Positions 8,561-43,263 of a DNA stretch of 64,000 nucleotides are shown here, piece after piece. Both the position numbers and the translations under genes were made by a program. Under the pieces are notes generated by a model. The model did not search any database and had not been told where the DNA came from. It worked only from the letters and a program-made list of their open reading frames with translations. Source of the DNA: Coniferiporia sulphurascens (taxonomy: Eukaryota; Basidiomycota; Agaricomycetes; Hymenochaetales; Hymenochaetaceae); the NCBI GenBank assembly GCA_002794785.1, contig NBBA01000012.1:434001-498000 (forward strand). The letters run 5' to 3'. Within the stretch, counting starts at the first letter, position 1. Each line of letters opens with the position of its first letter.

Positions 8561-8562
8561 CT

Positions 8563-9879: not shown

Positions 9880-9896
9880 AGAGGAAGCTTAGATGG

Positions 9897-16224: not shown

Positions 16225-16243
16225 CTGGGTCCGAGTCCTGGGT

Positions 16244-16820
16244 TTTATTATTATTATTATTATTATTATTCCTGCAGTATTACATAATTACAAGCTGCCC
16301 CCCTGAAGGGGGGGCCCTAACTACATAACAACAGAGGCGCCTGTCATTGTGCATCGCACAAAACTGGGCGGGGGCCCTGCTCCCCGAAGGGTGCCGAAGT
16401 ATGGAGGGCCCCTATTAGTACGTGACAAATGAAGAGGGAGGAGTACATATCACTACGATGATACCAAGCGGATGAATGCAGGCAAAAGAGGTAGCTTAGA
16501 ATGGAGAAGGGGAGGGTGAGAGCACTGGCCGAGACATATGGTTAGGAGTCTGAAAGGCGGTCACAGATCTGAGAGAAAGGGTGGGAGCGTACCTGAGAGA
16601 AAGGGCGGGAGCGTACCTGAGAGCTCCAAGAGCGCCAGGTCCAAGTCCTGGGTATGGGGTCCGAGCATACGACGCATGTAGTCCCTAAGGAGGTCCAAGT
16701 CCATATCCTCATCGGTGGGGTGGCTGTCTAGTTCCATCGCAGCAAAGGCCAGGCCAGAATTAAAGGGCACCCTTGCGGGACCCCACTACGCATGCACCTT
16801 CCTCATGACATAGATGCCCA
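16244..16820 (-). mobile_element. Small X-LINE chimera B (577 bp)
   Basis: It is flanked by GTCCGAGTCCTGGGT at 16229-16243 and 16821-16835. On the minus strand it has only the last 67 nt of X (16820-16754, with the GCAA-loop hairpin and TTAATTCTGG), then a LINE end from the LAFAAMELD codons through the ORF2 stop at 16561 and the 3' UTR to a TTATTA-type tail. The coding end contains a short direct duplication (SGTLPPFL twice). The 3' hairpin of the beta type lies at 16296-16315. Confidence 0.85.
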
Positions 16821-17693
16821 GTCCGAGTCCTGGGTGCGGGGTCTGAGCATACAACACATGTAGTCCCATAGGAGGTCCAGGTCCATATCCTCATCGGTGG
16901 GGTGGCCGTCTAAGTCCATGGCAGCAAATGCTAGCCGAATGGCGCCTGAGGTCCGGTCTGTTAGGCGGTTTAGGTGCCCTGTCAGCTTAAGCCAATGGCG
17001 CAAAACCAGGAGACAGTGTTCATCAGCCCACTCTGAATGGTGGACTGGGAGAGGGTCGCAAGGTGGCCACTGTTACAATTTTCCTTTACTTTCCCCTCTG
17101 CGCTGACTCACTTCCTATTCGTCATCATCAGTCAGCGCAACTCCCCATTTCTCTGCCTTACTCATCCGCATTCACCTTGCACCATACAATGCCATGATGA
17201 CGCCTTATTCCACCATCATGACGAGCTTTGCTTACTGATACCTTCACTTGTATTACCAAGACATTCCTTGGGGTTCCATGACCTTCCATAGTCATGTAAA
17301 CATACTAATACATGACCCTACAGTAGCAAACACATAGAGTAGCATATAAGCATGTAACTTCAGTAGCACAAGCCCTAAGCTTGTGCTCTTTGTTCATACA
17401 AGCCCATTATCTGCTACCACCAGTCTACTGTGCGCCACTTGGCCATTAGTCACTTCATCGTAACCCGACACCCCTAAGAAGCATCTCACATCCACATCAT
17501 CGATCAGGAAGCCCCACCGACAATCACCTTCGACTTACGACATCTAGGAAGCCCTGTTGCCGTACCATCCGTTCCGACGATCTAGAAGCCCCGACGTCGA
17601 TCACCACGTAACCATTGAGCTTAACAGCCACATGCATCGTATCCATGGGTGGAAAGTGCTGCAGCTGCCTAAGATGTGGGCGGTCAACTGCGC
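16821..17693 (-). pseudogene. LINE ORF2 C-terminal region of chimera A (broken)
   Basis: The minus strand encodes the C-terminal Cys/His region and tail of LINE ORF2, from AQLTAHILG through EWADEHCLLVLRHWLKLTGHLNRL and AIRLAFAAMDLDGHPTDEDMDLDLL to about the GPRTQDSD block, where chimera B has been inserted. A solo LTR at 17071-17626 divides it; on joining across the GCCAC duplication the frame resumes. There is no reverse transcriptase, so this copy was 5'-truncated at insertion and then joined to X at 17693/17694. Confidence 0.75.
17071..17626 (+). repeat. Solo LTR, gypsy family 1
   Basis: This 556-bp LTR (TGTTACAATTTTCC ... CTTAACA) is flanked by exact GCCAC duplications at 17066-17070 and 17627-17631. 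It lies in the LINE part of chimera A. Confidence 0.95.
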
Positions 17694-18715
17694 CTAGAAT
17701 TAAGAGCACCCTTGCGGGACTCAAACAACACATGTACCTTCCTCGGGATATGCAGCAACCAAAACTGCTCCCACTGTCCTCTACGACATATGGATGCTAT
17801 ATTGGAGCACTAGGGTAAGGTGTGCCGCACCAGGAGGCCACCCCGGGTGCAGGTTGCGGCGCCATAGGCACTACTCCACCCATATGGAATGACCCCCCTA
17901 CCCTACACATTCCCTCCCCAACCATAGAGGTCCTGTAGAGTACCGCTGCACTTCTGGGAATCAACTTAAGCCCATAGTGGGAATTACCCCCACATGAACT
18001 GATGGAGGATTTAGTCCTCTGGAGCCACTATGGGGGACTATCCCACAGCACTATGGCCCGAGACACTACACTTCAGCATGCCAGGATGCCGACACACGCT
18101 CCATGCAGGCCCTTTCCCATGCCCTGGCACATGCTTCAGAAACAGCCATTACAGCTGGAATACTCAGGTACCAAGGTCATGGGACAAGCGCCCAGTCAAC
18201 CCCCAGCCCCGCTTCTGGATCTGCAATTGTACCAGGATCTCTGTCTCGCATACCCGACCCCAGTGGCAAAGCCGTCCCAGGGAGTAAGGGATACTAACCA
18301 CCTCAAGAGGGTCCAACCCACCCAAGAGGCCCACAGTGCCCTGTCACCTTTCAGTGTCGGGTGGTTCTTACCACCATGCCATGTGTTATGAGCCCCCTAT
18401 CTCCTTTTAGCATGAGGTGCTGTCATCAGAGACCCTGTTGGGAATTTGGGGGGGCAGTTTTTGATTTGTCATGCCAGGGACAACGCGGGCTCCGAGGTAC
18501 CCAGGAGGGCAGTGCTCAGCACCTGAAGGTGCGATCTGGGTTGCCCCAAACCGAGGTCTCCTGACCGAAGCCGCCCACTGTGAGGCAGGGGGTTTCCCCC
18601 CCCCCTGTGAGGACATTAACATCATGTCCCCCCCGCCTAGCCCATGTACAATGCAGGCTAGACTAGCATGCCGCCCCGAGAGAGCAGCACAGATGCCAGA
18701 AGGATACATGCTCAC
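17694..18715 (-). repeat. X sequence, 3' portion (chimera A)
   Basis: This is repeat X in minus orientation; the other copies are at 33414-33655 (the rest of this one), 37897-39165, 39300-39671 with 42387-43263, and 41050-42372. No coding capacity is consistent between copies. Its 3' end on the minus strand is the hairpin CCC-GCAA-GGG followed by TTAATTCT(GG). Bases 18702-18715 (GGATACATGCTCAC) form the left target duplication of the LINE pair that splits it. Confidence 0.75.
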
Positions 18716-18773
18716 CATCCTTCTTGACCAGTAACCACCACCATCAACTAGTGCGGGCAGCTAAAACTCCCCC

Positions 18774-20790
18774 ATGTCGAACCCCAGTGGATACAGGAAT
18801 GCTCTACGATCGACTCAACCACCCCTCCCACCTCCCTCATCGGCCAGCGCTGATGCCAACAGGGCCGCCAGGGCCGCCGCCAACTGGGTGGCCGCTGGCA
18901 ACACTGCTGCCGCACTACACAGCACGACCCCCACCCCTGCCCAAATCGACCCAGGCCTCCTGGCGTCATCTCCAGACGCTCTCCATCTCGCCCCGTCCCC
19001 CGTCATCGGAGTCTTGAACACCGAGTTCACTCACATGTTCGAGCACATCAGCCACCCCCCCTCAGTAGGTTCCAACACCTCAGAAGAAGTCCAAGGATGC
19101 GAAATGGAGGACATCCTCGAGAACCCACACACACCTTCGCCGCCGCTCACCAACAAGCACTCATCGGAAGCCCTCTCCCCACACACCCCCCGACCCTGCC
19201 CTCAGACCAGTTTGAGCCGCACACATCGAAGTTTATGTACTCCCTCTCCCATGCACTGGAGGACTTCGACTGGAAGACCCATTGTGCCAATGCCACAGAG
19301 ACCGACTGGGCAGCCGGCCAGTTTGTTGGTGACCTCCTATGGAACGTCCAACAGACCATTGCTGGAGTTTTTAGGGATGAGAAGGACCCCCAACACATCA
19401 TCTCCCGCAACTTGGAGATGGCCTACAACTTCGCAAGGGAGGGGGCAGTAGCCTCCCTTCCAGCGCCCTTCGCCCCAGCTCCCCCCCAGCAAAGGACCCC
19501 GGCCACCACTCCCCAACCCTCTGCCCCAATCAGGACCCCCAGAACGCCAACATGTCGCCGGATGTGGCTGCGCTGACTAACATCATTAAGCAGCTCACCA
19601 CAGAAGTCGCAACCATCTCCCAGCAAGTCTCCACGCTTGTCAACCGGCCTGTGCCCCAAGCCCCACAGGCCTCGAAGGCCCAGGCCCCCACCACCACCAC
19701 CGCCCAGTCTGCTATCACTGCGGCACCAACTTCCTATGCCCAGGTGGCAGCCGCCCCGGCCCCACCTACAGCCTCCAACCCCAACCCCATCACACTGGCT
19801 CTGGGCACCATCTTCACAATGGTGACCCACAAGAAGAAGAAAAAGCAATGCCAGGTCCCACCCCCGCCCCCGATGTACACCAAGGATCCGACCCTAGTCC
19901 TCATCCTGACTGTCACCCTCAAGTCCGAGATCCAGCTCCTGGCTATGCACCTTACCACCACAGCATGTGAGTTCTTCTCCTCCCTCCTGACTGCTGATCA
20001 GGTCACGGTCCTGGCCTCCTCCTTCAATGTGAAGGGGAACCTCGTGACCTCCTTCGCCAAGCGCCCATCCTCTGCCTCTCCCGCCACAGACACGATCATC
20101 GATCGGCACTCTGCAGTGTTTGCGACCCACATGCATGACAGGTGTCTCTTGGTGGCGGCAGACAAGATCCCCACCCAGTATGCCTTCAACCCTGTCCGAG
20201 TCCGCCCCTGGTCTGTACTCCACATCTCCATGGTGCCCTGTGTGGACTACCTCTTCAGCCAGAATGGCCACACCATTTCCCCAAAGGCCAGAATGGCTGA
20301 AATCTGGAACAACCCAGCACTCCGCCCCCTCGACTTTGTAGTCGACCCCCACTTTGCCACCACTGAAAATCACCTTCCGACTCTTCAGAAGTGCCCTGTG
20401 GCGTTCTCCTTCTCCGACCCCAACGGATCCATACGTGCACAGCTGCTCAAGCGCCCACATGTCTGGCTGTTTGGTGCCGCCCTCTCCCTCTCTGTTCCTC
20501 CCTACTGCCCTAGCCTCACCCAATGTGAGGGCTGCCAGGGCTTAGGTCACGGAACGAAAGGTTGCTGTGCCGACTGCGGAGGAGGTCATCTCACCCATAA
20601 CCACCGTAAGTTGTGCACATCCTGTGCCACCGAAGCCATCGAGGGCGACCACTGCCCTCACCCTTGCTATTGCATGAACTGCAAAGGCGACCACCCCGCC
20701 ACCCTCCCTCAATGTCCCAAGAAACAGCGCTACCACCAGATCATGGAGGCCACTGAAGGGCCCAACGACAAACACATGGAGGACCTATGA
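18774..20790 (+). pseudogene. LINE A2 ORF1 (broken)
   Basis: The start ATG at 18774 is in the same context (CCCCCATGTCGAACCCC) as in A1, A5 and C3. Two frameshifts (near 19195 and 19540) move the frame. Segments in order are the N-terminal RAARAAANWVAAGN block, the FMYSLSHALEDF to MAYNFAREGA helical block, a Pro/Ala/Gln-rich linker, KKKKK near 19830, the conserved VTVLASSFNVKGN core and the C-terminal Cys/His array. The first knuckle is CEGCQGLGHGTKGC. A short deletion right after it removes residues present in A1 (the AQPCCT stretch), which joins two Cys/His clusters. The final codons overlap the ORF2 start as ATGA. Confidence 0.85.
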
Positions 20791-20808
20791 ATAGAGACAT
20801 CTCTATTC
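20787..20808 (+). promoter_or_regulatory. ORF1/ORF2 stop-start overlap plus hairpin (A2)
   Basis: ATGA at 20787-20790 joins the two ORFs, and the same perfect 9-bp inverted repeat as in A1 occupies 20789-20808. Confidence 0.7.
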
Positions 20809-22348
20809 TCCAGTGGAATGCTGCCTGCTCCCTAGCCATGGTCCATTCCCTTATTCCTATCCTTACCACTGACCCATCCCCACCCACCATCATTTTAATC
20901 CAGGAACCACCCTGGTATCAAATTGGCCTCCAGCCATCACTCACTGACCCCTCTGGCACACCAGTGCTCAATGTTCCATCCCTCGCAGGGTACACAGCCA
21001 TTCTTCCCCCAGCCACCTGACCAAGGGTCGTCACGTATGTATCCCGCGCCATTCCACCAACTGCTTGGTCCATCCTAGGCACCACAACCTCCGGCACTGA
21101 CGTCCTTACCATCGAAATCCACTCCCACCTGACAGTCTGCTTATGCAACTACTACAGCATGCATGCTCTGGACTGCACCACCACCACCCCCCTCTATCCA
21201 GGTGAGTCATTTCTTTTTACGATCCTGCCTATGATAGCCACCATGCTACTCGTGGCGGGCAACTTCAACTGTCGCCACCACTCATGGTCCGAATTACTTG
21301 CCACACAGCAGGAGGACTTGAGGGCACAACCCCTTAATGACTTCTTCTGGGAGCATGGCCTTGCGCCAGCTCACCTCCCAGATTCTGACTCACAGCCTGT
21401 CGACAATCGTCGGTGGTGCCCTATTGACATGATTTGGTCCCCCCCTCGATAAACCCTGACACAATCATAGACTCGGGCTCCTCAACCACCTCCCCACTGT
21501 CCGACCATGCCATGTTGCGCTGGTCCCTGCCATCTCGGCCCCCACCCCCAGTCATTAAAACACGCTGGCTACTTCCGGCTGACAGGGAAGAATGGACCAG
21601 CATCACCTTCCCACTACTCAAAACTGCCTTTCACCTACCAGTGAGCAACAACCTCACCCTCAACTTCAAAGCGCAAGCAGTGGTCGACTCTATGGTCGCC
21701 ACCCTTGCACCCTTCACCTGCATCACTAAGCCGTCAAAAACCGAGGTCCCCTGGTGGATGCCGACATGCAAATCGCTCCTCCAGGCGATCACAACCGCTA
21801 CCACCCCCCTCAAGCATTCAGCAGCCCGCCATGCCTTCAAATGTGGGGTACGGGCGGCCAAGCGGCAATTCTACGCCAACCAAGCCGACCAAGCCGACGC
21901 CTCCAACATCTGGAACTGGGCCAAACGTGGCCTCAGCAACCAACCTACCCCTATCCCTCGCTCAAAAAGTGCAACGGGACCTTCACCCAAACGGAAGAAG
22001 AGAAAGGTGAGCTTTTCTGCACCACTTTCTTCACACCCCCTCCACCCATCCCAGTGGCTGACACACCGCCACCTCCCCCTCAACCAGCTGCCCCACCCAT
22101 ACTCCTCTCAGAGCTTACAGGGGCACTGTCTGACACCTCCAACTTGTCAGCTCCGGGCCTCTCGGGCATCGGCTACCACCCTCTCAAATGGGTGGTAGAC
22201 ACTTACCCTGAGGAGACCCTCACCCTTTTCAATGACTGTTTGTGCATGGGGCACCACCCCAAGTGCCGGTGGGCAGCAAAAGTGGTGATGCTCTGGAAGC
22301 CAAACAAGAAGGACCCATTCTCGCCGCAATCATACTGGCCCATTACCC

Positions 22349-23430
22349 ACATCGACAATAAGTCGGGATCGGCCATCTGCACTATGCTAGGCCACACTCG
22401 ACTCCGGTCATGCCGACTGGAGTCCCCCACCTGCGCTACAGCCACGGACACTGAGGAATTCTCCCTCGCCACGGCCCCAGGCTGGGTAGCGCGCCGCCTC
22501 CCGGCACAACTGTGTGTCGCATCGGATATCTTCTTTTTGTCCGATTCGCTGACCGCTCTCCACCTCTTCCGCACTTGGGATGCCACCCCTGGTGCTCACC
22601 TCCTCCACATCTGGAAAGCGGGTGTGGAGACCCTGCTGGACTCATACCCCCAGCTCACTGTTCATTTTGTCTGGTGCCCTGGTCACTCGGACATCCCCGG
22701 TAATGAATGGGCTGACAAGGAAGTGAAACTGGTGACGGAGCTTCCCCCATCCGACCTAAAGCCCTCCACCTCTGCACTAAAAGAAGTCGCCATCTGTACC
22801 CTCATGAACCGATGGACGCTCTCACTAGCCCGCCCCCTCGCCTCAACCGCTGACAAATACCTGGCAGTACGTGGCCTCCCTTCTTGACAACCTCGAAAGC
22901 TACTCATGAACTTGGTCGACCACCCACATAAGGAGCTATCTGCCATCACGCAGGTCCTCTGCCGTGCCGGTCCCTATGGGGGATACTGGCTGAGTTTCAA
23001 CTCAGCCTACCGGCACAGGCATGGCCTGATCTCGCACTGCAGGTGGCATAACCACCCCCCATGGCCTACACAGTTGACCACTCACATTCTAGGCGGCTGC
23101 AGTACATTCCATCCATGGATACAACGTGTATGGCCACCTCGAGACCCTCTCCCAGTCCACCACTCAGAGTGGGCTGATGAACACCGACTCCCAGTTTTGC
23201 ATCGCTGGCTTAAGCTGATGGGGCACCTTAACCCCCTTTCTGACCGTGCTGTGGGCACCATATGGCTGGCTTTTGCCACAATGGACCTAGATGGCCACCC
23301 AACCAACGAATATATGGACTTGGACCTCCTACGGGAATACATGCGTCGTATGCTCGGACCCCGAACCCAGGACTTGGACCCGGCCCTTTTGGAGCTTTCA
23401 GGTATGCTCCCCCCATTTCCTCTTGATTAA
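22349..23430 (+). pseudogene. LINE beta1 ORF2, RNase H and C-terminus (broken)
   Basis: The insert begins in RNase H (DNKSGSAICTMLG; the first catalytic Asp is already missing). It continues with the Glu block (DTEEFSLATAPGW), FFLSDSLTALHLF and NEWADKEVKL, then ADKYLAVRGLPS and a TGA near 22885-22887 followed by CAA where paralogues have CGA/CGC Arg codons. The C-terminal domain follows: LCRAGPYGGYWLSFNSAY, the HCRWHNHPPWP and HILGGC Cys/His cluster, EWADEHRLPVLHRWLKLMGHL, and the end LLELSGMLPPFPLD at 23430. It shares this C-terminus with the C family rather than A. It is only a passenger copy. Confidence 0.85.
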
Positions 23431-23746
23431 ACGCCTGTCTTTCAGATTCCTACAGATACGTCTCGGCTGGTGCTCTCGCCTCCCCTTTCTCACTTCTAAG
23501 CTTCTTACTTTACCTGCCCTCACCTGCTTGGTTGGTTCATAGCAATATGTATCCCTCCTTCTCTTGTTTTTCTTATGAAATAGGGGCTCTCCAAACTTTG
23601 GCACCCTCCAGGGAGCAGAGCCCCCGCCCAGTTTTGTGCGATGCGCAATGATGGGTGCCTCCATTGTTATGTAGTTAGGGCCCCCCCTTTGGGGGGGCAG
23701 CTTGTAATTATGTAATACTGTAGGAATAATTTAAAAAAAAAAAAAA
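22349..23746 (+). mobile_element. LINE beta1, 5'-truncated (1.4 kb)
   Basis: It is flanked by TACTGGCCCATTACCC at 22333-22348 and 23747-23762 inside the A2 reverse transcriptase. It starts in RNase H and ends in an A-rich tail after GTAGGAATAATTT. The hairpin CCCCCCC-TTT-GGGGGGG lies at about 23682-23699. Confidence 0.95.
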
Positions 23747-26532
23747 TACTGGCCCATTACCCTCAAGGAGACCCTAGGGAAACTCCTTGAAAAGATTATT
23801 GCTAACCGGCTACAATTCCTCGCAAACACGAGGGACTGGCTGCCACCCAGCCAATATGGGGGGCGTCAGGGACACTCTGTCTACAACACTGCCCAGCACC
23901 TCCTACAGATTGCAGAGCAAGCCCATGCTGAGGGCCTCGTATGTTTGGTCCTAGCGGTCGACATACAGGGCTTCTTCGATTCGGTACACCCGCAACTCCT
24001 CCACCGGCAATTGTTGGACCTCCAGTGCCCACCTGACATGGCGAACTGGTGCCTGTCCTTCATGACGGATCGGCAGGTCGCCATCTCCTTCGACGGCACC
24101 ACCCTCCCAACCGCCCAGAAACCCAACCTCGGCACTCCTCAAGGGTCGCCAGTATCCCCAATCCTCTTGACTATATTCGCGGGCATGGTCCTCTGGAAAT
24201 TTCACCAAACCGGCACCACCGCCCTAGCATATGTGGATGACCACCTCCTCGTGTGTGTCGGACCCAGCATGGCATCCAACTGCCAGCAACTGTCCAATGC
24301 CTACCACCAACTCAATGCCCATTTTGGTGCCATCAGCCTCAACATTGAAGCCGCCAAAATGGAGTGCCTACACTTCCACCCACCCCGATGCCGCTCAGCC
24401 ACCTACACCAACTGGGACACCACTGGAGTCTGGGTCGCCCCCACTATGCTCATCTGACCCTCTATCCCCCTCCGATGGCTGGGTATATGGTGGGACCTGG
24501 CCCTCACCTTCAAAGCCCATGTGGAATGTATGTGCTCCAAGGGCCTCTCCACCCTCACCGCCCTCCGCATTTTAGGCAACACTGAATGTGGAATCTTGGC
24601 CCTTCTCCTCCATCGACTATACACTGCCTGCATCCGCTCCGTCCTCACGTGGGGCACCCTGGTGTGGTATCATGGCCGGTGCCAAAAAACCTTAGTAAGC
24701 CATCTGCAGGCTGTACAGAACACGGCTTGCAGATGGATTCTAGGCGTCTACAAAGGCGCCTCTCCCTTCTCTACAAACTTTCTTTGTTCCCTTCCCCTCC
24801 TCTCTTACTATTTTGAATACACTAAGACCCTCCATTCTCTACACCTCTGGTGCACCCTGCACTCCATAGGTAGAAAATGATACTATAAAAACATAACTAA
24901 CCATCCCTTTTCCACTTCTCTGCAGGTCCGGGTCCCCCAGGTACAACCAGTTCCTGCATACACTCATCCCCTATGGACAGATCCTCTGGCATTTACGAAT
25001 GGAAGAGTCTCGTTTGCCACTCCTATCACTCTGGTTAGCGAGGACACCCGCAAAGAATTTGTGGCCGCTGCATGCTCACTGAGCACCCTCCCCCACCTCC
25101 AGGTCTTCACCGATGGCTCATGCATGGGATCGAAGTCCGGATCAGCCATTTGTGCAATGACGGGCCTTACTTGACTCAAGTCTCGCAGGCTGGCCTCCCC
25201 CACGTGCGCAACAGCTACGGACGCAGAGATCTTCTCCCTCACATCCGCACCAAGCTGGGCAGCACACCACCTCCGGGACCTTTTGCCTGTCGCATTGGAC
25301 ATCTTCTTTCTGTCCAATTCGCTGACAGCACTACACCTTCTCCGCACTTGGGCACCGGTACCAGGCGCACACCTCCTCCATCAATGGAAGGCAGGGGTCC
25401 AGACCCTATTGGACTCTCATCTGGATCTCTCCATCCACTTCATGTGGTGCCCAGGTCACTCCGACATCCCCAGGAATGAATGGGCAGACCATGAGGCGAA
25501 GTTTGCAATGAACCTACCCCCGTCCTCCCTTGCACCCTCCACCTCTGCGCTGAAAGAGGCCGCCGTTAACACTCTTATGGAGCACTGGTCCCTCTCACTC
25601 ACCCACCCCCTGGCCTCGACAGCCAACAAATACCTCGCTGTCAATGGCATCCCCTCCCGCCATCCCCGAAAGCTGCTCATGCAATCAGTTGATCACCCAT
25701 GCCAGGAGCTGTCCGCAATCGCCCAGGTCCTATGTCATGCCGATCCCTATGGGGGTTACTGGCTGAGCTTCGACTCAGCCTACCGATGCAGGCACGGCTT
25801 GATCTCGCATTGCAGATGGCACAACCACCCCACCTGGCCAGCCCAGTCGACCGCTCACATACTGGGCAGGTGTCACACTTTCCGACCCTGGATCCGCAAG
25901 GTCTGGCCTCCCCATGACCCACTCCCAACCCACCACATCGAGTGGGCCAATGAAAACCATCTCCAGGTTTTGCACCACTGGCTGAAGCTGACGAGGCATT
26001 TTAACTGCCTATCCGACCATACCACTGCTGCCATCTGCCTAGCCTTCACCGCGATGGAGCTGGAGGGACACCTGACTGACGAAGATATGGACTTGGACCT
26101 CCTCCAGGACTACATGAGTCATATGCTTGGACCCCGTACCCAGGACCTGGATCCGGCTCTCTTGGAGCTTTCAGGTGCACTTCCTCCCTTTTCCTCTGAT
26201 CTGTGATTGCCTTTCGGACTCCCTCCATACGTCCTGGCCAGCACTCTCGCCCTCCCTTTCCTATTCTAAGCTACCCCCTTTTGCCTGATGTCATCCGTTT
26301 GGCTTGGCCATAGTGATATGTATTCCTCCCTCTGTTTCTTTCTCTTCTGCGAATAGGGGCCCTTCCCACCTTGGCACCCTTCAGGGAGCAGGGCCCCTGC
26401 CCAGTTTCATGCATTGTGTGATGACGGGTGCCTCTGTTGTTATGTAGTTAGGGCCCCCCCTTTGGGGGGCAGCTTGTAATTATGTAATACTGCAGGAATA
26501 ATAATAAAATTAAAATTAAAATTAAATAAAAT

Positions 26533-28515: not shown

Positions 28516-28532
28516 TAGAGACACTCTCTATC
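28512..28532 (+). promoter_or_regulatory. ORF1/ORF2 stop-start overlap plus hairpin (C2)
   Basis: ATGA lies at 28512-28515. The perfect 8-bp inverted repeat GATAGAGA/TCTCTATC encloses CAC at 28514-28532. The loop and the encoded residues differ from family A, but the pairing is kept. Confidence 0.7.
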
Positions 28533-32509: not shown

Positions 32510-32751
32510 AGTCTGCCTTTCGAATTCCTATGAATACATCTCGACTGGCGCTCTTGCCATCCCTTTCTCAATTCTAAGCTTCCTACTTTGCCTGCCCTCA
32601 TCCGCTTGGTTAGTTCATAGTGATATGTATTCCTCCTTCTCCTCTTCTTTCTCTAACTCAATAGGGGCTCTCCACACTGCGGCACCCTTTGGGAGCAGAG
32701 CCCCCGCCCAGTTTTGTGCGATGCGCAATGACGGGTGCCTCCATTGTTATG

Positions 32752-33310
32752 TGTTAAGCTCAACGGTTACTCGATGATCAATGTCGGGGCTTCCTGATCG
32801 TTGGGGCTGGTAGTATGGCAACAGGGCTTCCTAGATGTCGTAACTCGAAGGTGATCGTCAGTGGGGCTTCCTGATCGGCGAAGTGATGCAGTAGGCTTCT
32901 TAGCTGAGTCAGGTTACGATGAAGCGACTAGTGGCACAGCGGCACACAGTAGACTGGTGAGGAGCAGATAATGGGCTTGTATGAACAAAGAGCACAAGCT
33001 TAGGACTTGTGCTACCGAAGTTACATGCTTATATGCTACTCTATGTGTTTGCTACTGTAGAGTCGTGTGTAGGTTCATTTACATGGCTATGGAAGGTCAT
33101 GGAAACCCAAGGAAGGTCTTGGTAATACACGTTGAGGTATCAGTAAGCAAAGCACATCATGATGGTGTGATATGGCGTCATCATGTTGTCTTATGGTGCA
33201 AGGGGAATAAGGATGAGTAAGGCAGAGAAATGGGGGAGTTGCACTGACTGATGATGATGAAGAGGAAGTGAGTCAGCACAATAAGGGGAAAGTAAAGGAA
33301 AATTGTAACA
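32752..33310 (-). repeat. Solo LTR, gypsy family 1, in the C2 3' UTR
   Basis: This 559-bp inverted LTR is flanked by exact TTATG duplications at 32747-32751 and 33311-33315. It sits between the conserved GCAATGACGGGTGCCTC box and the 3' hairpin of C2. Confidence 0.95.
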
Positions 33311-33368
33311 TTATGTAGTTAGGGCCCCCCCTTCAGGGGGGCAGCTTGTAATTATGTAATACTGCAGG

Positions 33369-33399
<31 letters not shown>

Positions 33400-33655
33400 G
33401 GATACATGCTCACTGAGAATCCACCCAGAGGCAACGTTTTCGACAGGTTGCCAAGACTGCCGGTGAGCTCCACACCCATTTCCCGCCGCGTTACGGTGAC
33501 CGATGACCAACCCCGGCACACCAGGGTGAGTCGGAACCTTCTCTTGTATGATGCCCAGTCCCAGAGAGTCCAGACAAGGTTGGGTAGCTGCGACTTCCCC
33601 AAGCCGACCCCAGTTGCAAAACCGAGATGGTGGTGGTAAGAGGACAAGAAGGATG
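33400..33655 (-). repeat. X sequence, 5' portion (chimera A)
   Basis: After the right target duplication (33400-33413) X continues in minus orientation to its 5' end at 33655, which reads CATCCTTCTTGTCCTC on the minus strand. With 17694-18715 this makes an X copy of about 1.26 kb. Confidence 0.8.
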
Positions 33656-33784
33656 GACCGAATGGCCTTGATGCCCCCCATATTGATTAGGTGGCAACCA
33701 GTCCCATGTGTTAGCAAGGAACTGGAGCCGGTTAGCGATTATCCTTTCGAGGAGTTTCCCTAAGGTCTCCTCAAGGGTGATACT
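33656..33784 (-). pseudogene. LINE reverse transcriptase fragment
   Basis: The minus strand encodes only about 40 residues of a LINE reverse transcriptase N-terminal part (TLEETLGKLLER, IIANRLQFLANT, WLPPNQYGGHQGHSV). On its 3' side it is cut by the 5' end of X at 33655. On the other side it joins a plus-strand endonuclease fragment directly at about 33784. It is the target into which chimera A inserted. Confidence 0.75.
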
Positions 33785-34773
33785 ACCCCCAGACTCCTGT
33801 CCTCAGGTTGTTACCTATGTGGCACGCTCCCTCCCCCCAACCTCCTGGTCAGTACTCGGCACAGCCTCCCAAGGCACCGATGTCCTCACTGTGGAGATCC
33901 GATCCTCCCTCATGGTTCAGGTGTGCAACTACTATGGTATGTCACCCCTGGTTCGCATCAGGGCCCCTCCACAGTACCCAGGTGAGTCTTTCCTGTTTTT
34001 CGCTTCCCTCAGCACTGGCCACCACCCTCCTTGTGGCGGGCAACTTCAACCGTCATCACCCCACATGGTCTGAACTCTCCGCCTCACAGCCAGAGGAATT
34101 GAGGGTGCAACCCCTTGACAACTTTTTCTGTGGGCATGGCCTGGCACCTGCCCATTTACCTGACTCTGACTCGAGGCCTGACGGCAACCGCCTGAGGTGC
34201 CCCATAGACATGATCTGGGCCCCCCCCCTCCATCAACCCTGATGCCATCCTGGACTCGGCTACTTCCGACCCCTCACCACTGTCGGACCATGCCATTCTG
34301 CACTGGTCCATTCCTTTTTGGCCCCCACCTCCCATCCTAAAGATACACTGGCTCCTACCAGCCAACAGGGAAGAATGGACTGACATCGCCTTCCCTCTCC
34401 TCAACATCGCATTCAACCTCCCAGTTGGTGACACCCTCACCCTGGACAACAAAGTGGGCACCATGGTGAAAGCCATGGTGGCAGCCCTCGAGCTGTTCAC
34501 CCACCTCTCAAAACCGTCAAAAGCGGAGGTCCCATGGTGGACACCAATGTGCAAGACCCTGCTGACCGCCATTTCGACAGCCACCACCCCCCTCCAGCAT
34601 GCATCAGCGGGCCGCGCTTTCAAATGCGGAGTGCGCACGGCCAAGCGGCAGTTCTATGCCGACCAGGCCACCGAAGCAGATGCCTCCAACATCTGGACTT
34701 GGGCTAAACGAGGCCTTGGCACCCGCCCCACCCCTATCCTGTCCCTCAAATGACAAGATGACACCTTCACCCA
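33785..34773 (+). pseudogene. LINE ORF2 endonuclease fragment (broken)
   Basis: The plus strand encodes the middle and end of a LINE endonuclease, from VVTYVARSLPPTSWSVLG through VCNYYGM, a GNFN block where GDFN is expected, CPIDMIW and LSDHAIL. The linker follows (KAEVPWWTPMCK, AGRAFKCGVRTAKRQFYAD, NIWTWAKRGLGTRPTPI). The frame shifts near 34000 and 34240. It stops in the linker at about 34773, where the 5' leader of LINE D begins. It is head to head with the reverse transcriptase fragment on its left. The sequence is closest to the family C endonuclease. Confidence 0.75.
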
Positions 34774-34953
34774 GTCCCTTCTTGACCTCTTACCACCACC
34801 ATCTCCCTAGTGTGGGCAGCTTAAACTCCCCCATGGCAGATCATTTCAGTGGTTGTCCTCTACAACCTACAGGCCTATCTACTGCTAGCTCTACTGTGTC
34901 TGGTGCCACTCATCAAGCCCGCTGGTCGCCCCCCACCCCCCGAAGCCGCTCGC

Positions 34954-35380
34954 TGTTACAAATTTCCTTTGCTCACCACCTTTATCGGCATTAGTCATCT
35001 TCGCTGACTAATTCTACTTGTACACTGACTGACCCTAGTCTCATGATCAGTCAGACTCTTCTACCAGTTTCTATTCCCTTCCATGCTGACTGACCTTTGT
35101 CTTTGCTCAGTCAGCATTCCATAATGTTCCATAGGTTTCTATACATGTATATAAGAACTCGCTTTCAGAGCACTAAGCCACAAGCTTGTGCTCTTCGTTC
35201 AATAGAGCCTACTTGTTCACTATCTCCTCTGCGGGATATTAAGTCACCAGTCACCAGTACAACAGCCTACTAGTCCTTGGGGAAACCTTTGCTCAATTGT
35301 CACCTCATCTCTACCTTGCCTTAACTCGGTCAATCCTTGTTAATCGCTTATTAAGCCTTACCTAATCAGTAGGCTTAACA
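34954..35380 (+). repeat. Solo LTR, gypsy family 2
   Basis: This 427-bp LTR (TGTTACAAATTTCC ... AGGCTTAACA) is flanked by exact CTCGC duplications at 34949-34953 and 35381-35385. It differs from family 1 over most of its length. It still has TATATAAG at 35148-35155 and the same AAGCTTGTGCT 11-mer at 35182-35192, 32 nt further on. Confidence 0.92.
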
Positions 35381-35630
35381 CTCGCTGTCCCCACTGGCAC
35401 GCATAGGCTCCCCCAACCGCTTCGCCCTCCTCAACGACCTCCATCAGTGGCCGCAACGAGAACCGCAGCCCGCCCCCGACACTGCCCAGGCCCAGTGTAT
35501 AGCAGGGCCTGGAGAGGACGACCAGATGTGGGATGACCCGCATACACCCCCTCCGTCAACGGGCAAGCGCAATGCCGATGTCCTCTCCCCCGAGACCCCT
35601 CACAACCGGCCGGTCACCTCAGAGTTCGTT

Positions 35631-36488
35631 TGGCCCTCAGCTTCGGGGGCCCAGCTCCTCCCTCTCTGGAAGGCGGGGGTCGAGACTCTTCTCGACTCTT
35701 TTCTGAATCTGATCATTCATTTCCGCTGGTGCCCAGGGCACAAGGAAATCCCCGGGAATGAATGGGCGGACTCCAAGGCGAAGCTGGCTACCGAGCTTCC
35801 CCCGTCTACCCTTGCCCCCTCTATCTCCGCTCTGAAGGAAGTAGCGACTCGCACACTCAGCGAGCGATGGTCCCTCCAGCTGACCCGCCCCCTCGCCTCC
35901 ACTGCAGACAAGTACCTTGCAGTGTCAGGCCCACCCACCCGATGACCACAGAAGATCCTCACCGTCTCGGTCAACCACTTGTGAGTAGAGCTCACTGCAG
36001 TGGCCCAGGTCCTCTGCCGCACTGGTCCCTATGGGGGTTACTGGCTGAGCTTTGACTCAGCTTACCGGTGCAGGCACGGCCTGATCTCTCACTGCAGGTG
36101 GCACAACCACCCACCCTGGCCAGCACAGTCAACCTCCCATGTCCTTGGCGGTTGTGAAACCTTCCAGCCATGGATATGCCATGTCTGGCCCAAGAGCGAC
36201 CCCCTCCCTGTCCACCATTCTGAATGGGTGGATGAAAACCACCTCCTGGTCTTAAGGTGCTGGCTGCGCCTCACAGGCCACCTCAACTGGATGTCCAACT
36301 GCACAGCTGGGGCAATTCACCTTGCCTTTGTGGCCATGGACTTGGACAGTCTCCCCACTGATAACGACCTCAACTTGGGCACTCTCCAGGGCTATGTGCA
36401 CAGGTTGCTTGGATCCAGGACTCAGGACGCAGACCCAGCTCTTTTGGAGCTAGCAGGTATGCTCCCACCATTTCCCTCTGACTCTTGA
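35631..36488 (+). pseudogene. LINE alpha2 ORF2, C-terminal part (broken)
   Basis: Coding starts in RNase H between the third catalytic block and the last one: LLPLWKAGVETLLDSF, HFRWCPGHKEIPGNEWADSKAKLA. It runs through ALKEVATRTLSERWSLQL and ADKYLAVSGPPTR to a TGA at 35943-35945, and another TGA lies near 35980. The C-terminal domain (LCRTGPYGGYWLSFDSAY, HCRWHNHPPWP, HVLGGC, VDENHLLVLRCWLRLTGHL) ends with LLELAGMLPPFPSDS at 36488. Without endonuclease and reverse transcriptase it was dead on arrival. Confidence 0.87.
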
Positions 36489-36829
36489 CTGCCCTTCAGA
36501 TTCCCCATCGGTTTCTTCTATGGCACTTGCAGCTGCTCCTTTCCTCTTCTAAGGGACTCTCTTATCCTGATCTTGCTCTTGCCTGGTTTGGCTTTCTGTA
36601 GTTGCAATATGTATGCCTCCCTCTCTTCTATCTCTATTTTCCCTAATAGGGTGCATAAGTTCACTAGGCCTCCTTACGAGGCACATGCCCCACCCAGTTT
36701 CACTCAATGAGCAATGATGGGCACCTCAGTAGTTAGGTAGTTTACAGGCGGCCCCTTTGGGGCCACAGGTGTATTGTGTAGCTCAGTAGGAATAATAAAT
36801 TTTAAAAAAAGAAAAAAAAGAAAAAAAAA
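35631..36829 (+). mobile_element. LINE alpha2, 5'-truncated (1.2 kb)
   Basis: It is flanked by CCTCAGAGTTCGTT (35617-35630) and CCTCAGAGTTTGTT (36830-36843); the one difference is a former CpG. It carries the end of RNase H, the C-terminal region, the alpha 3' UTR with the hairpin near 36748-36765, and an A-rich tail. Confidence 0.93.
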
Positions 36830-37546
36830 CCTCAGAGTTTGTTCAAGCTCTGACTGACTTCGCACCAAACGTCAAAAGGGCCCTTGAATCCCTCAAGGCC
36901 GAAATCAAAGAGGCCGCCAGCTCCACCTCAGTCATACAAGCAACAGCAGCATTCCTGGGGAAACTAACAGCCCTCAGCCATGAAGCCTTGTCAACAGCTT
37001 ACTGGACTCAAGAACAGGATGACCTGGACCACATTGCCACCCACTCAGCAGAACAGGTGTATGCCCAGAACACAATGGGCATGCGAATCTCCCTTGGCGC
37101 ACCATTCTCCTCCGCCTTCAGAGCCCTGTTTTCCTTCAGCACTAGGCCTAAACAGGCAGACTCAAGTCCAACCTACCCCCCTGACTCACAGATTGTGGTG
37201 CTGGCAGACTTTTTTTTTTTTTTTTTTTTTTTAAAATTTATTATTCCTACTGAGCTATGCAATACACCTGTGGCCCCGAAGGGCCGCCTGTAAACTACCT
37301 AACTACTGAGGTGCCCGTCATTGCTCATTGAGTGAAACTGGGCAGGGCATGTGCCTCATAAGGAGGCCTAGTGAACTTACACACCCTATTAGGGAAAATA
37401 GAGATAGAAGAGAGGGAGGCATACATATCATGACTACGGAAAGCCAAACCAGGCAAAAGCGAGATCAGGAAAAGAGAGTCCCTTAGAAGAGGAAAGGAGC
37501 AGCTGCAAGTGCCATAGAAGAAACTGATGTGGAATCTGAAGGGCAG

Positions 37547-37896
37547 TCAAGAGTCAGAGGGAAATGGTGGGAGCATACCTGAAAGCTCCAAAAGAGCTGG
37601 GTCCGTGTCCTGTGTCCTGGATCCGAGCAACCTACACATGTAGCCCCGGAGGGTGTCCAAGTCCAGGTTGTTATCGGTCGGGAGTCCGTCCAGGTCCATG
37701 GCCGCAAAGGTGAGGCGGATCGCCCCGGCTGTGTGGTTGGACATCCGGTTGAGGTGGCCTGTAAGGTGTAGCCAGCGCCTTAGGACCAGGAGGTGGTTTT
37801 CGTCCACCCATTCAGTATGGTGGACTGGGAGGGGGTCGCTTCTGGGCCAGACTCGTTGTATCCACAGCTGGAATGTTTCGCATCTGCCTAGGACAT
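37547..37896 (-). pseudogene. LINE alpha ORF2 C-terminus in chimera 1
   Basis: The minus-strand frame begins at the X junction with the codons for DVLGRCETFQLWIQRVW. It continues through VDENHLLVLRRWLHLTGHLNRM and AIRLTFAAMDLDGLPTDNNLDLDTL, and ends LLELSGMLPPFPSDS at 37547. It lacks everything N-terminal to the Cys/His region. The upstream ATG-like frame running into X (to 37936) is a chance extension. The 3' UTR (37210-37546) has the alpha hairpin near 37271-37288. Confidence 0.8.
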
Positions 37897-39165
37897 CCAG
37901 AATTAAGAGCGCCCTTGCAGGACTCAAATAACGCATGCACCTTCCTTGGGATATGCAGCAGGCGAAACTGCTCCTGCTGTCCTCTCCGACTTATGGATGC
38001 GTGATGCACTAGGGTAAGGCGTGCCGCGCCAGGAGGCCACCCCAGGTGCAGGTCGCAGCACTGTAGGCACTACTACACCCATATGGAATGACCCCCCTAC
38101 CCTACACATTCCTTCCCCAACCATAGAGGTCCTGGAGAGCACTGCTGCACTTCTGGGAATCAACTTAAGTGATGCAGTCAGAATTACCCCGATGCACACC
38201 GACAGAGGATTTAGTCCTCTTGAGCCACTGTATGCAACTCTCACACAGCACTACGGCCCGCGACACACCACTTCAGCAAGCCGGAATGCCGACTCACACT
38301 CCATGATGGCCATTTCCTGTTCCCTGGCATGCACTTCAGAAACAGGCCATTACAGCCTGGAATACTCGGAGGCACCAGTCATGAGTGACAAACGCCCAGT
38401 CAGCCCGGCACCCCCGCTTCTGGATCTGTGATCATACCAGGATCTCTGCCTCGCATAGCTTGACCCTGGTGGCAGAGCCGGCCTGAGGAGTCTGCCATAC
38501 TAACCACCAGACTGGGAGATGAAACAACCCAGCCGGCCCATGCTGCCCTGCACCCTGCCGGGCTTGGGTGGTTATAACCCACAATAGACATGTGTTACAA
38601 GCCGCCTATCTCCTTTTAGCAATAAATGCTGTCATAAGAGACCCTGCCGGGACTTGGCGGAGCAGTTTTTGATTTGTCATGCTAGGGACAATGCGGGCTC
38701 CAAGGTGCCCAGGAGGACAGAGCTCAGCACCCAAAGGCACAATCTGAGTTGCCCCAAACCGAGGTCTCCTGACCGAAGTCGCCCACTGTGAGGCAGGGGG
38801 TTTCCCCCCCTTGTGAGGACATTAACATCGTGTCCCTCCCCGCCAAGCCCACATACAATGCAGGCCCAACGAGCATGCCGCCCTGAGAGAACAGCGCAGA
38901 TGCCAGAAAGAATCATCCTCACCGAAGCATCAATCCAGAGGCAATGTTTTTGATGGGTTGCCAAGCCAGCTGGTGAGCTCCATGCCCGTTTCCTGCCGCA
39001 TTACAGTGACCGACGAACAACCCTGGCGCACCGAGGTAAGCCGGATCCCCTCTCTTGTATGATGGCCAAGGCAAGGCCCCAGTGCAAGGTCAGGTTGCTG
39101 TGACATACTGCCAAGAACACCCCAGAGCGAAAGTGAGATGGTGGTGGTAAGAGGACAAGAAGAGA
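37897..39165 (-). repeat. X sequence, nearly full length (chimera 1)
   Basis: This copy of X is about 1.27 kb. On the minus strand it starts TCTTCTTGTCCTCTTACC and ends with a CCTGCAAGGG hairpin and TTAATTCTGG at 37897. I see no conserved ORF on either strand when the copies are compared. Its first 30 or so bases resemble the 5' leader of LINE D. Confidence 0.75.
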
Positions 39166-39299
39166 TGGCACTGGCAGACGTTGTCAAGCAGCTCTCAGTC
39201 AATGTGGGGAACCTCACCCGCCAGGTCTCCTCCTTGGCCTCCCACCCTGCCCCGCAGCCTCAACAGGTCCCTCAGCAGACTCCAACAAATGTGGGAGGA

Positions 39300-39671
39300 C
39301 ATCCTTCTTGTCCTCTTACCACCACCATCTCGGTTTTGCAACTGGGGTCAGCTGGGGGAAGTCGCAGCTACCCGACCTTGTCTGGACTCTCTGGGACTGG
39401 GCATCGTATGAGAGAAGGTTCTGACTCACCCTGGTGCACTGGGGTTGGTCGTCGGTCGCCGTAATGCAGTGGGGAATGGGCGTGGAGCTTGCTGGCAGTC
39501 TTGGCAACCCATCAAAAACGTTGCTTCTGGTTGGATTCTTGGTGAGCCTGTATCCTTCTGGCATCTGCACTGCTCTCCCAGGGCGGTGTGCTCATTGGGC
39601 TCGGTGGGGGGGGACACAACATTAATGTCCTCACAGGGGGGGGGGAAACCCCCTGCCTCGCAGTGGGCGAC
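39300..39671 (+). repeat. X sequence, 5' portion (chimera 3)
   Basis: It begins CATCCTTCTTGTCCTC at 39300. Bases 39658-39671 (TCGCAGTGGGCGAC) are the left target duplication of chimera 2. The stretch holds no supported gene. Confidence 0.8.
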
Positions 39672-39996
39672 TTTTTATTATTATTATTATTATTATTATT
39701 CCTGCAGTATTACATAATTACAAGCTGCCCCCCCCCCGAAGGGGGGGCCCTAACTACATAACAACGGAGGCGCCTGTCATTGTGCATCACACAAAACTGG
39801 GCAGGGGCTCTGCTCCCCAAAGGGAGCTGGAGTGTGAAGAGCCCCTATTTAGTAAGGGAAATGAGAGAAGGAGGGATACATATCGCTATGAACAAACCAA
39901 GCAGATAAGGGAAGGTTAAAGTAAGAAGCTTAGAAATGGAAAGGGAGGGTGAGAGCGCCAGCCAAGACATATTCAAGGGAATTCAAAAGGCAGATG

Positions 39997-41049
39997 CTAA
40001 TCGAGAGGAAAGGGAGGAAGCATACCTGATAGCTTCAAAAGGGCTGGGTCCGAGTCCTGGGTTCGTGGTCCGAGCATACAACACATGTAGTCCCATAGGA
40101 GGTCCAGGTGCATATCCTCATTGGTTGGGTGTCCATCAAGGTCCATCGCGGCAAAGGCCAGCCGGATGGCACCCAAGGTCCTGTCCGAAAGGCAGTTCAA
40201 GTGCCCCATTAGTTTAAGCCAATGGCACAGAACTGGGAGGTGGTTTTTGTCAGCCCACTCCGAATGGTGGACTGGGAGAGGGTCCCGAGGTGGCCATACA
40301 TGTCATATCCACAGGTGGAAAGTACTGCAGCCGCCTAGGATGTGGGCAGCCGACTGTGCAGGCCATGGGGGGTGGTTGTGCCACCTGCAATGTGAGATCA
40401 GGCCGTGCCTGCGCTGGTAGGTGTTAAGCTCAACGGTTATGCGGTGATCAACGTCGGGGCTTCCTGATCATCGAGACTGGTGGTTACGGCAATGGGGCTT
40501 CCTAGATGTCGTAAGTCGAAGGTGATCGTCGATGGGGCTTCCTGATCGACAATGTGGACGCGGTAGGCTTCTTATAGCGAGTTGGGTTACGATGAAGCGA
40601 CTGATGGCACAACGGTGCACAGTAGACTGGTGGTAGCAGATAATGGGCTTGTATGAACAAAGAGCACAAGCTTAGGGCTTGTGCTACTGAAGTTACATGC
40701 TTATATGCTACTCTATGTGTTTGCTACTGTAGCGACTTGGTTAGGTATGTTTACCAGACTATGGAAGGTCATGGAAACTCAAGGAAGGCCTTGGTAATAC
40801 AAGTACGGGGATCAGTAAGCAAAGCACATCATGATGGTGCAATAAGGTGTCATCATGGCGTCTTATGGTGCAAGGCGAATAAGGATGAGTAAGGCAGAGA
40901 AATGGGGGAGTTGCGCTGACTGATGATGACGAAGAAGAAGTGAGTCAGCGCAGTAGAGAAAAGTAAAGGAAAATTGTAACAGTAGGCTGAGTCAAAACTC
41001 AGCCAGTAGCCCCCATAGGGACCAGCACAACAGAGGACCTGAGCGACTG
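39997..41049 (-). pseudogene. LINE beta ORF2 C-terminus in chimera 2
   Basis: The minus strand begins at the X junction in the codons for VAQVLCCAGPYGGYWLSFDSAY. After the solo LTR it continues with the HCRWHNHPPWP and HILGGC Cys/His region, the LGHLNCL and AIRLAFAAMDLDGHPTNEDM blocks, and the end LLKLSGMLPPFPLD at 39997. Only the extreme C-terminal domain is present. The solo LTR duplication (GTAGG) falls in the SAYR codons. Confidence 0.78.
40422..40981 (-). repeat. Solo LTR, gypsy family 1, in chimera 2
   Basis: This 560-bp inverted LTR has exact GTAGG duplications at 40417-40421 and 40982-40986. Confidence 0.95.
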
Positions 41050-42372
41050 CCAGAATTAAAGGGCGCCCTTGCGGGACCCCACTATGCATGCACCTTTCTT
41101 GTGACATAGAAGCCTGACTGGTAGGACTTACACCCGACATGCTGTCCTCTATGGCACACTGGATTGGGAAGGGCGTGCCATGCCAGGGAGACATTCCGAG
41201 TGAGGGTCATGGTGCCATAGGCACTACCCCACCCATTGGGTGCCCCCCTTACCCTACACATTCCCCCCCTTACCCTGCTTTCCACTGTAGAGTGCCGCTC
41301 GTTTCTGGGAATCAACTTAAGCCCGCAATAGGACTACTCCTACACAAACCCATGCCAGATTTAGTGCTCTGGAGCCAGTGGAGGGAACTATCCCCCACTG
41401 CTACAGCTCGCTCCATAATGGAGGGGTTTCCTAGGCCCCCCCGGAGTTTCCTGTTCCCCGGCACATGCTTCAGAGCCCCAAAGGGGAATATTCAGGCACA
41501 AGGCCCGCTTCTGGATCCATGGCATACCGGAGTTGACGTGTTGCCCTCGCTTGGACCCCGGCACTTGTTACAGCCACCAGGGAGTCCGCTCAGACTAACC
41601 ACCTCTCGAGGGGTACCAGCATCCTTCCCATTTTGATGGGAGAGGGCCAGCTACCAAGAACCTCCCGTGAATGCAAGGTAAGCCCCAGCATTATCCCCCC
41701 AAGAGGCCCATGGTGGCCTGTCGCTCTCGTGTCGGCTGGTTCTTACCACAATGCCATGTGTTATGAAGCCCCTATCTCCTTATATCAACTAGTGATGTCA
41801 TCAGAGACCCTTTTGGGATTTGGGGCAGCAGTTTTTATGGTTTGTCATGCCAGGGACAATGCAGCCCCAGGATTTTAAGTCCCGACCCGAAGGTCAGATC
41901 CGAGTCTCCCCGAACCTGAGGTCTCTTGACCGAAGCTGACTGCTGAAGGGCAGAGGGTTACCCCCCCCCCCCATGTGGGTGTGGGGACGTTAACGTCATG
42001 TCCCCCCCCCGACTGGCAGGCATGTGCCCCTTGCCCTGCCGAGAGGCGGACCAGCGGGAACGCCATCCTCGAGAAGGTCAGTGCAGATGTGAGAGAGGAT
42101 CATCCTCACCGAGTCTCCCCCCCCAAGAGGACATTAATGATGGGTCCTTGTGCCAGCCAGCAAATGCAAGCGCCCATCTCCTGCCATCCAATGACACCAT
42201 TACAGTGCCTTGGCGACTGGCCAGCTGCCCTCCCTATAAGGGTGGGCAGTCAGAGAGCCTTCTCTCATGTTGCCCCAGTAGTATACCAGAGCTAGACATG
42301 GGTTGCTGCGACTGACCAGAGATGACCCTAGAGCGAAGGTGAGATGGTGGTGGTAAGAGGACAAGAAGGATG
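41050..42372 (-). repeat. X sequence, second subtype (chimera 2)
   Basis: This X copy is about 1.32 kb. Its ends match the other copies (CATCCTTCTTGTCC at the 5' end; CCC-GCAA-GGG and TTTAATTCTGG at the 3' end), but its interior differs from chimera 1, 3 and A, and it shares CCCCACTATGCATGCACC near the 3' end with chimera B. Two X subtypes therefore exist. No gene is supported; the ORFs here are not shared between copies. Confidence 0.72.
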
Positions 42373-42386
42373 TTGCAGCGGGTGAC

Positions 42387-43263
42387 TTCGGTTGGGAAAC
42401 CTTGGTTCAGGGCAACCTGGATCGCACCTTCGGGTGCTGAGCAATGCCCCTCTGGGTACCTCGGGACTCATGTTGTCCCTAGCATGAAAAATCAAAAACT
42501 GCTCCCCCAAATTCCCAAAAGGGTCTCTGATGATGGCACTCCATGCTAAAAGGAGATAGGGGGCCCATAACACATGGCATGGCAGTAAGAACCACCCGAC
42601 ACTGAAAGGCGACAGGGCACCATGGGCCTCTTGGGTGGGTTGGACCCCCTTGAGGTGGTTAGTATCCCTTACTCCCTGGGACAGCTTTGCCACTGGGGTC
42701 GGGTATGCGAGACAGAGATCCTGGTACAATTGCAGATCCAGAAGCGGGGCTGGGGGTTGACTGGGCACTTGTCCCATGACCTCAGTTCCCAAGTATTCCA
42801 GCTGTAATGGCTGTTTCTGAAGCACATGCCAGGGCACAGGAAAGGGCCTGCATGGAGTGTGCATCGGCTTTCCGGCATGCTGAAGTGTAGTGTCTTGGGC
42901 CATAGTGCTGTGGGATAGTCCCCCATAGTGGCTCCAGAGGACTAAATCCTCCATTGGTTCATGTGGGGGTAATTCCCACTATGGGCTTGAGTTGATTCCC
43001 AGAAGTGCAACAGTACTCTACAGGACCTCTATGGTCGGGGAAGGAATGTGTAGGGTAGGGGGGTCATTCCATATGGGTGGGGTAGTGCCTATGGTGCTGT
43101 GACCCTCACTTGGGATGGCCTCCTGGTGCGGCACGCCTTACCCTAGTGCTCCAATATAGCGCCCATATGTTGTAGAGGACAGCGGGAGCAGTTTCAGTTG
43201 GCTGCATATCCCGAGGAAGGTACATGTGTTGTCTGAGTCCCGCAAGGGCGCTCTTAATTCTGG
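42387..43263 (+). repeat. X sequence, 3' portion (chimera 3)
   Basis: X continues after the chimera 2 duplication and ends with TCCCGCAAGGG and TTAATTCTGG at 43263. A long antisense frame (42328-42954, starting MEDLVLWSHYGG) has a counterpart in chimera A but is broken or absent in the other copies, so I do not call it a gene. Confidence 0.78.

Follow-up and report, generated by a model that had tools for sequence, protein, structure and literature searches.

How does a non-coding repeat come to be joined, always by the same 3′ end, to long interspersed nuclear elements (LINEs) that are truncated at many different points? The question is raised by a 64,000-nucleotide stretch of the basidiomycete Coniferiporia sulphurascens (assembly GCA_002794785.1, contig NBBA01000012.1, positions 434,001 to 498,000; hereafter the window), in which five copies of a repeat, termed X, run directly into LINE sequence. 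We searched the 39.3-Mb genome (31 contigs) for further copies and found sense LINE sequence directly 3′ of X in every flank examined, usually with a short sequence motif on the LINE side of the joint. We favour the view, with about an even chance of being right, that LINE RNA is cut and ligated to X RNA before retrotransposition, over the view that reverse transcriptase switches templates.

X and its LINE partners

X is a unit of about 1,265 nt, with sister forms of up to 1,323 nt. It starts with CATCCTTCTTGTCCTCTTACCACCACCATCTC and has a fixed 3′ end, TTAATTCTGG, and 28 of the 46 copies with longer flanks run unbroken from leader to end (1,263-1,323 nt). The first-pass annotation had recognised the repeat from the window, and the unit proves real genome-wide; what had been overlooked is that its first 30 nt agree with the start of the LINE at 26 of 30 positions (LINE leader CATCCTTCTTGACCAGTAACCACCACCATC, for example at 18716-18745 on the plus strand of the window). 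Four representative forms (A, divergent A, B and C) are conserved at the start, over about 58 nt at the end and in further blocks between, which alternate with stretches that cannot be aligned between A and B/C.

X had been suspected to be non-coding, and our results agree. The four forms have no long reading frame in common, and neither the longest sense frame of one A copy nor one antisense frame has a match in Pfam. Beyond the leader, blastn of forms A and B against the LINE returns nothing significant except short weak antisense matches. X is thus rejected as LINE coding sequence, given that no convincing blastn match past the 30-nt leader, no common long frame and no Pfam match were found. 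An Rfam search of window positions 15000-45500, with E values up to 1, gave a single weak and unrelated match outside X. Folded as a consensus, the last 240-380 nt of X are more stable than column shuffles, and the covariation term, with positive values taken as unfavourable, is no better than theirs. Copies diverge from the majority sequence by about 5% outside CpG-type contexts and 18% inside them, as expected of methylation-linked decay. Together, X looks like a non-coding, non-autonomous satellite of the resident LINE.

All five joints previously placed in the window, at 16753/16754, 17693/17694, 37896/37897, 41049/41050 and 43263/43264, are confirmed to the base, as is the constant X end or its close variant. 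They lie at five different LINE points, in two of three LINE subfamilies by best match. Chimera a (16243-16820, minus strand) consists of only the last 67 nt of a B-type X (16754-16820, ending TTAATTCTGG at 16754) and a LINE 3′ fragment (16243-16753) with a TTA/TAA tail at 16243. In chimera b, also on the minus strand, an A-type X ending in the variant TTAATTCTAG at 17694 is joined to a LINE fragment (16835-17693) that is broken by a 560-bp repeat resembling a solo long terminal repeat (LTR) at about 17071-17626. This X copy is itself split into a 3′ part (17694-18715) and a 5′ part (33400-33655, with the leader beginning at 33655) by a full LINE starting at 18716, which is flanked by a 14/14 target duplication (18702-18715 and 33400-33413). 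Chimera c (37210-39167, minus strand) joins a complete divergent A-type X of 1,271 nt (37897-39167) to a LINE 3′ fragment (37210-37896). Chimera d (39674-42372, minus strand) joins a complete B-type X of 1,323 nt (41050-42372) to a LINE 3′ fragment (39674-41049), again broken by a 560-bp solo-LTR-like repeat (40421-40981). It splits the plus-strand, A-type X copy of chimera e into a 5′ part with the leader (39300-39673) and a 3′ part (42375-43263, ending TTAATTCTGG at 43263), which continues into a fragment of the third LINE subfamily (43264-44076, plus strand) that is cut short by another LINE.

Three chimeras of the window had been described as carrying clear target duplications of 14-15 bp. 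This stands for chimera a, with 14/14 matching positions (16229-16242 and 16821-16834); the pairs around chimera d (39660-39673 and 42375-42388) and chimera c (37198-37209 and 39168-39179) match at only 12/14 and 10/12, respectively. Genome-wide, 25 chimeras with a locatable X start and LINE tail could be tested, three more being without a detectable tail. A duplication of at least 12/14 around the whole chimera is present in 8 of the 25 rows, corresponding to 7 of 24 distinct cases, compared with 0.7% of 600 mismatched control pairs, and a second method adds copy 23 at 14/15. In at least these chimeras, the duplications around the whole indicate insertion of X and LINE as a single unit via the LINE route. 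The other 17 of the 25 rows fall below the 12/14 level, likely owing to nesting, decay and missed tails. Two loci on different contigs, L023 (C16) and L029 (C28), are identical in the compared X and LINE parts and have the same target duplication; the pair reflects a segmental duplication or a duplicate in the assembly.

To count X, we used two extended X-end patterns, which gave 71 and 72 matches genome-wide; their reversed forms, used as controls, gave 1 and 2. Subtracting the two chance matches from 143 leaves about 141 recognisable X ends, a number that omits copies with eroded or different 3′ ends because the patterns need a near-intact end. When the last 888 nt of X served as a DNA query, with only 40 of 255 candidates scored, 39 of 41 matches reach the end (37 at position 888 and 2 at 886). 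Leader patterns gave 235 X-type and 287 LINE-type matches and none when reversed; the patterns tolerate mismatches, so that a few leaders may be present in both counts. X leaders are therefore more numerous than recognised X ends. In the retrieved DNA, 9 of 35 leaders have no X end within 1.4 kb, and most of these belong to X copies that are interrupted, truncated or run off the retrieved piece. At C6:940558-940975 and C12:633590-634042, an X-type leader is followed, 388-423 nt further 3′ and on the same strand, by a LINE leader; nesting may explain this, or an X fragment attached to a LINE.

The 3′ flanks of 86 of the 141 X ends were examined, namely 46 long flanks and 40 flanks of 50 nt drawn randomly from the remainder. 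A LINE follows directly and in sense in 86 of 86; 85 flanks match the LINE reference set directly and one matches the LINE open reading frame 1 region via another copy. Antisense LINE sequence was found in none of the 86. On the 5′ side, by contrast, 27 complete X copies have mixed flanks, with 8 sense LINE, 12 antisense LINE and 7 non-LINE sequences. The joints span the LINE from base ~96 to base ~6,255 of the 6.4-kb reference, reach from the 5′ to the 3′ untranslated region and lie mostly in the last third (reference 1 occupies 55991-62398 of the window on the minus strand, with its leader at 62398-62369 and an A-rich tail at 55991). It had been argued at first pass that solo X copies, or one constant LINE junction, would make X simply a part of one LINE family. 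No X without a LINE end was found among the 86 flanks examined of about 141 X ends, and the 82 mapped joints fall at 70 distinct LINE sites in three subfamilies. At locus L055 (C8:1654649-1656340), a complete A-type X is preceded by about 420 nt from the 5′ end of a C-type X and followed by a near-complete LINE joined at base ~96; this double arrangement is likely due to nesting, the alternative being a double joint.

Eight of the LINE sites are used two to four times. In three sets of same-site joints the LINE parts are 74-86% alike, and X is 90-94% alike in the four same-site pairs with comparable X; three other pairs show lower X likeness because X is incomplete in copies 0 and 1. Chimeras joined at the same site but diverged in both LINE and X parts thus represent independent events, except for joints 33 and 36, which are identical, have common flanks and were treated as a duplicate, so that joint 36 was left out of the motif counts.

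The motif at the joint

We aligned 85 independent joints, taking the LINE context 5′ of the joint as the majority bases of related copies and the bases 3′ of it as observed. Information is confined to positions -3 to +2 and reads YYG^CC on the LINE side, with the joint at the caret. YYG^C occurs at 48 of 85 joints, a 25-fold enrichment over the LINE background (p 6e-56), and is similarly frequent with A-type X (29/53) and B-type X (19/32). The narrower core C(C/U)G^C is present at 36 of 85 joints against 1.3 expected, leaving 49 without a strict fit, and G occupies +2 at only 2 of 85. Among the 71 genome-wide matches to the A-type pattern, X is followed by C in 52 cases, by T in 10, by A in 8 and by G in 1; C has a slight advantage in this count, being also the last letter of the pattern.

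Part of the motif lies in LINE bases that are missing from the chimeric product, and in this it resembles an endonuclease site. Two-base microhomology with the X end was rejected, as GG at -2 and -1 is found at 0 of 85 joints against 4.8 expected, and so was spliceosomal trans-splicing, as AG precedes the joint at 2 of 85 against 3.9 expected. At +1, 11/85 joints differ from the LINE majority, near the 7-9/85 at +2 to +4, which indicates a scarless joint with no excess of extra bases. Plain LINE truncations differ: 13 rows reduced by hand gave a small sample of seven, one of them ambiguous, and G^C occurs at 0 of 7, or at 1 of 7 if the ambiguous case is read otherwise (p 0.003 or 0.04).

Possible routes to the chimera

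In the cut-and-ligate model, X RNA would start with the LINE-like leader and end without a tail at TTAATTCTGG, so that it would need to gain a LINE tail for retrotransposition. LINE RNA would be cut at about C(C/U)G^C, and its 3′ piece, which carries the tail used by the LINE proteins, would be joined to the 3′ end of X RNA by a host RNA-repair ligase. The LINE machinery would then copy and insert the hybrid RNA, leaving one target duplication around the whole chimera. We infer that the joining would take place on RNA, with an Ire1-type nuclease making the cut, a Trl1-type ligase making the joint and the shared leader serving as a promoter. The genome holds an Ire1-type RNase domain and an RNA_lig_T4_1 ligase domain, the latter of which we take to belong to Trl1, the fungal tRNA ligase; RtcB has no match in the genome.

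The published Ire1 sites are UG^C with a bias against G at +2 in Schizosaccharomyces pombe (PMC3470409), C(U/C)GCAG in filamentous fungi (PMC10551036) and CNG^(C/A)NGN in Saccharomyces cerevisiae (PMC8104961). By sequence, the joint core C(C/U)G^C and its avoidance of G at +2 are close to these. A motif reaching outside the product, the absence of microhomology with X and a cleavage-like core together suggest that cutting and ligation fits the joints at least as well as the template jumping suggested at first pass. The X end TTAATTCTGG (for example at window 43254-43263) is itself vaguely like TTAACTGGTGC, an Ire1-cut stretch of S. pombe Bip1 (PMC3470409).

Several points weigh against cutting and ligation. 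No strict YYG^C is present at 37 of 85 joints, and the LINE contexts on which the motif rests are majority bases of related copies only about 80% alike. The +3 G of the S. cerevisiae Ire1 site is not enriched (16/85 joints). X's own end (UGG) is off-motif, and its 3′ terminus must therefore arise in another way; a second cut of the finished chimera at its joint was rejected as a source of X, since folding leaves the joint 0.30-0.34 unpaired, below the mean of 0.45-0.51. In a first test the joint sites preferred unpaired positions; against motif-matched unused sites this preference is reduced to p 0.03 and 0.11 for two flank sizes, placement in hairpin loops gives p 0.22 and 0.27, and a flank shuffle gives p 0.38. 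Finally, MINE, the closest relative of the X-LINE chimeras, is attributed to template switching (PMC2104539).

Template switching is the strongest alternative, and we consider it somewhat unlikely here. Reverse transcriptase would copy LINE RNA from its 3′ end, pause at a preferred sequence, jump to the 3′ end of X RNA and copy on to the X 5′ end. This is the published MINE model, and according to the accessible part of that account (PMC2104539) MINEs likewise share joint sites, carry a site motif and target duplications and have no microhomology reported for them; some sites here are also reused with different LINE lineages. However, the enzyme would not yet have copied motif bases -3 and -2 when it paused. 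There is no two-base homology with X at any of the 85 joints, no excess of extra bases and, after motif matching, no significant excess of hairpins at the sites. The MINE motif GCC^A/U occurs at 0 of 85 joints, and plain truncations, which are also enzyme stops, show G^C in at most one case of the small set of seven.

A hybrid route, which we regard as improbable, would dispense with the ligase: LINE RNA would be cut at YYG^CC, and reverse transcriptase would run off the cut 5′ end and jump end-to-end onto the X 3′ end. This would account for both the cleavage-like motif and the fixed acceptor end, and a plain truncated LINE at window 22350 may share its LINE start point with X joint 2. End-to-end jumps of reverse transcriptase often add untemplated bases, however, and no excess of added bases is present at the joints.

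The remaining explanations are highly improbable: the 30-nt leader common to X and LINE and the abundance of nested elements in the region might suggest that X is a mere part of a LINE family or that the chimeras arose by chance nesting, but the number and spread of joint sites over three subfamilies and the LINEs seen with their own leader and no X between leader and body speak against the former, the uniform sense LINE downstream versus the mixed upstream flank and the target duplications enclosing X and LINE together against the latter, and the rarity of an AG acceptor against spliceosomal trans-splicing.

Building on cutting and ligation, it is tempting to speculate that X is a LINE parasite tailed anew in each round through the unfolded-protein-response route, by an Ire1-type cut at C(C/U)G^C and tRNA-ligase joining, and that it exists solely as chimeras that remake X RNA; we think this fuller scenario rather unlikely. 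Chimeras able to remake X RNA would account for the fact that no solo source gene was seen.

Setting of the chimeras and known systems

At least 100 DUF6533 domain matches and 14 hydrophobin matches in the genome accord with a basidiomycete. The region of the window is crowded with nested LINEs, LTR-like repeats and repeat X. Two LTR-like direct repeats (8001-8562 and 15665-16226), 94% alike, flank Ty3-type gag and pol frames at 8593-12893. A further, inverted copy lies at 13300-13859, and solo copies of the repeat are present at 17071, 32751, 40421 and 44293.

In kind, X-LINE is a MINE-type chimeric element, as had been proposed from the window. Four of the five features of MINEs given in PMC2104539 are found here: a 5′-truncated LINE 3′ part, variable truncation points, the same orientation of both parts and direct repeats around the whole. 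The fifth is a 5′ part that is a full-length copy of a cellular RNA, with which the fixed ends of X are consistent. Like X-LINE, the WEIRD-MGL MINEs of Magnaporthe grisea combine a complete non-coding 5′ partner of about 1.1 kb, joined by one end, with varied LINE 3′ fragments, and the same text describes target duplications, shared joint sites, a joint motif and no solo 5′ partner. The two systems differ in scale, with 31 MINEs against about 141 X ends, and in motif, GCC^A/U there and YYG^CC here. X starts with a LINE leader, a link that the MINE account, as far as its available text goes, does not mention. Two WEIRD primers and one MINE primer, the only three sequences compared, match X no better than shuffles.

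Chimeras of U6 and LINE-1 are a second relative, reportedly made by RNA ligation (Moldovan et al. in 2019). There too a LINE fragment is attached to the 3′ end of a non-coding RNA, and ligation before retrotransposition has been argued (as discussed in PMC13247085 and PMC13174262). Unlike U6, X is a repeat of 1.3 kb that carries a LINE-like leader, in a genome with an RNA_lig_T4_1 domain and no RtcB match. The Ire1/tRNA-ligase pathway of HAC1 splicing and regulated Ire1-dependent decay (PMC3470409, PMC8104961, PMC10551036) shares with the joints the C(C/U)G^C core and the avoidance of G at +2, and both of its domains are present in the genome. It differs in that the +3 G is not enriched and the loop preference is mostly lost with matched controls, and LINE RNA is here only a putative Ire1 substrate. 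Short interspersed nuclear elements (SINEs) are also non-autonomous LINE passengers. Whereas a SINE mimics the LINE 3′ tail and supplies its own promoter, X has a LINE 5′ leader and no LINE tail of its own, the tail coming from the joined LINE piece.

We recognised no such chimeras in basidiomycetes, and no link between Ire1 and LINE chimeras, in the open-licence literature, where most hits were judged by title and opening abstract lines. New are the scale, the resemblance of the X leader to that of the LINE, and a joint motif resolved to the base.

The MINE arrangement, described in one ascomycete, thus has a counterpart of larger scale in a basidiomycete, and its 5′ partner need not resemble a random host RNA but can have the look of a satellite of the LINE. 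The approximately 85 independent joints form a base-resolution record of two RNAs being joined, and they make it testable whether LINE chimeras are products of reverse-transcriptase jumps or of cutting and ligation of RNA. Should ligation prove right, the cell's own RNA-repair route would feed a transposon.

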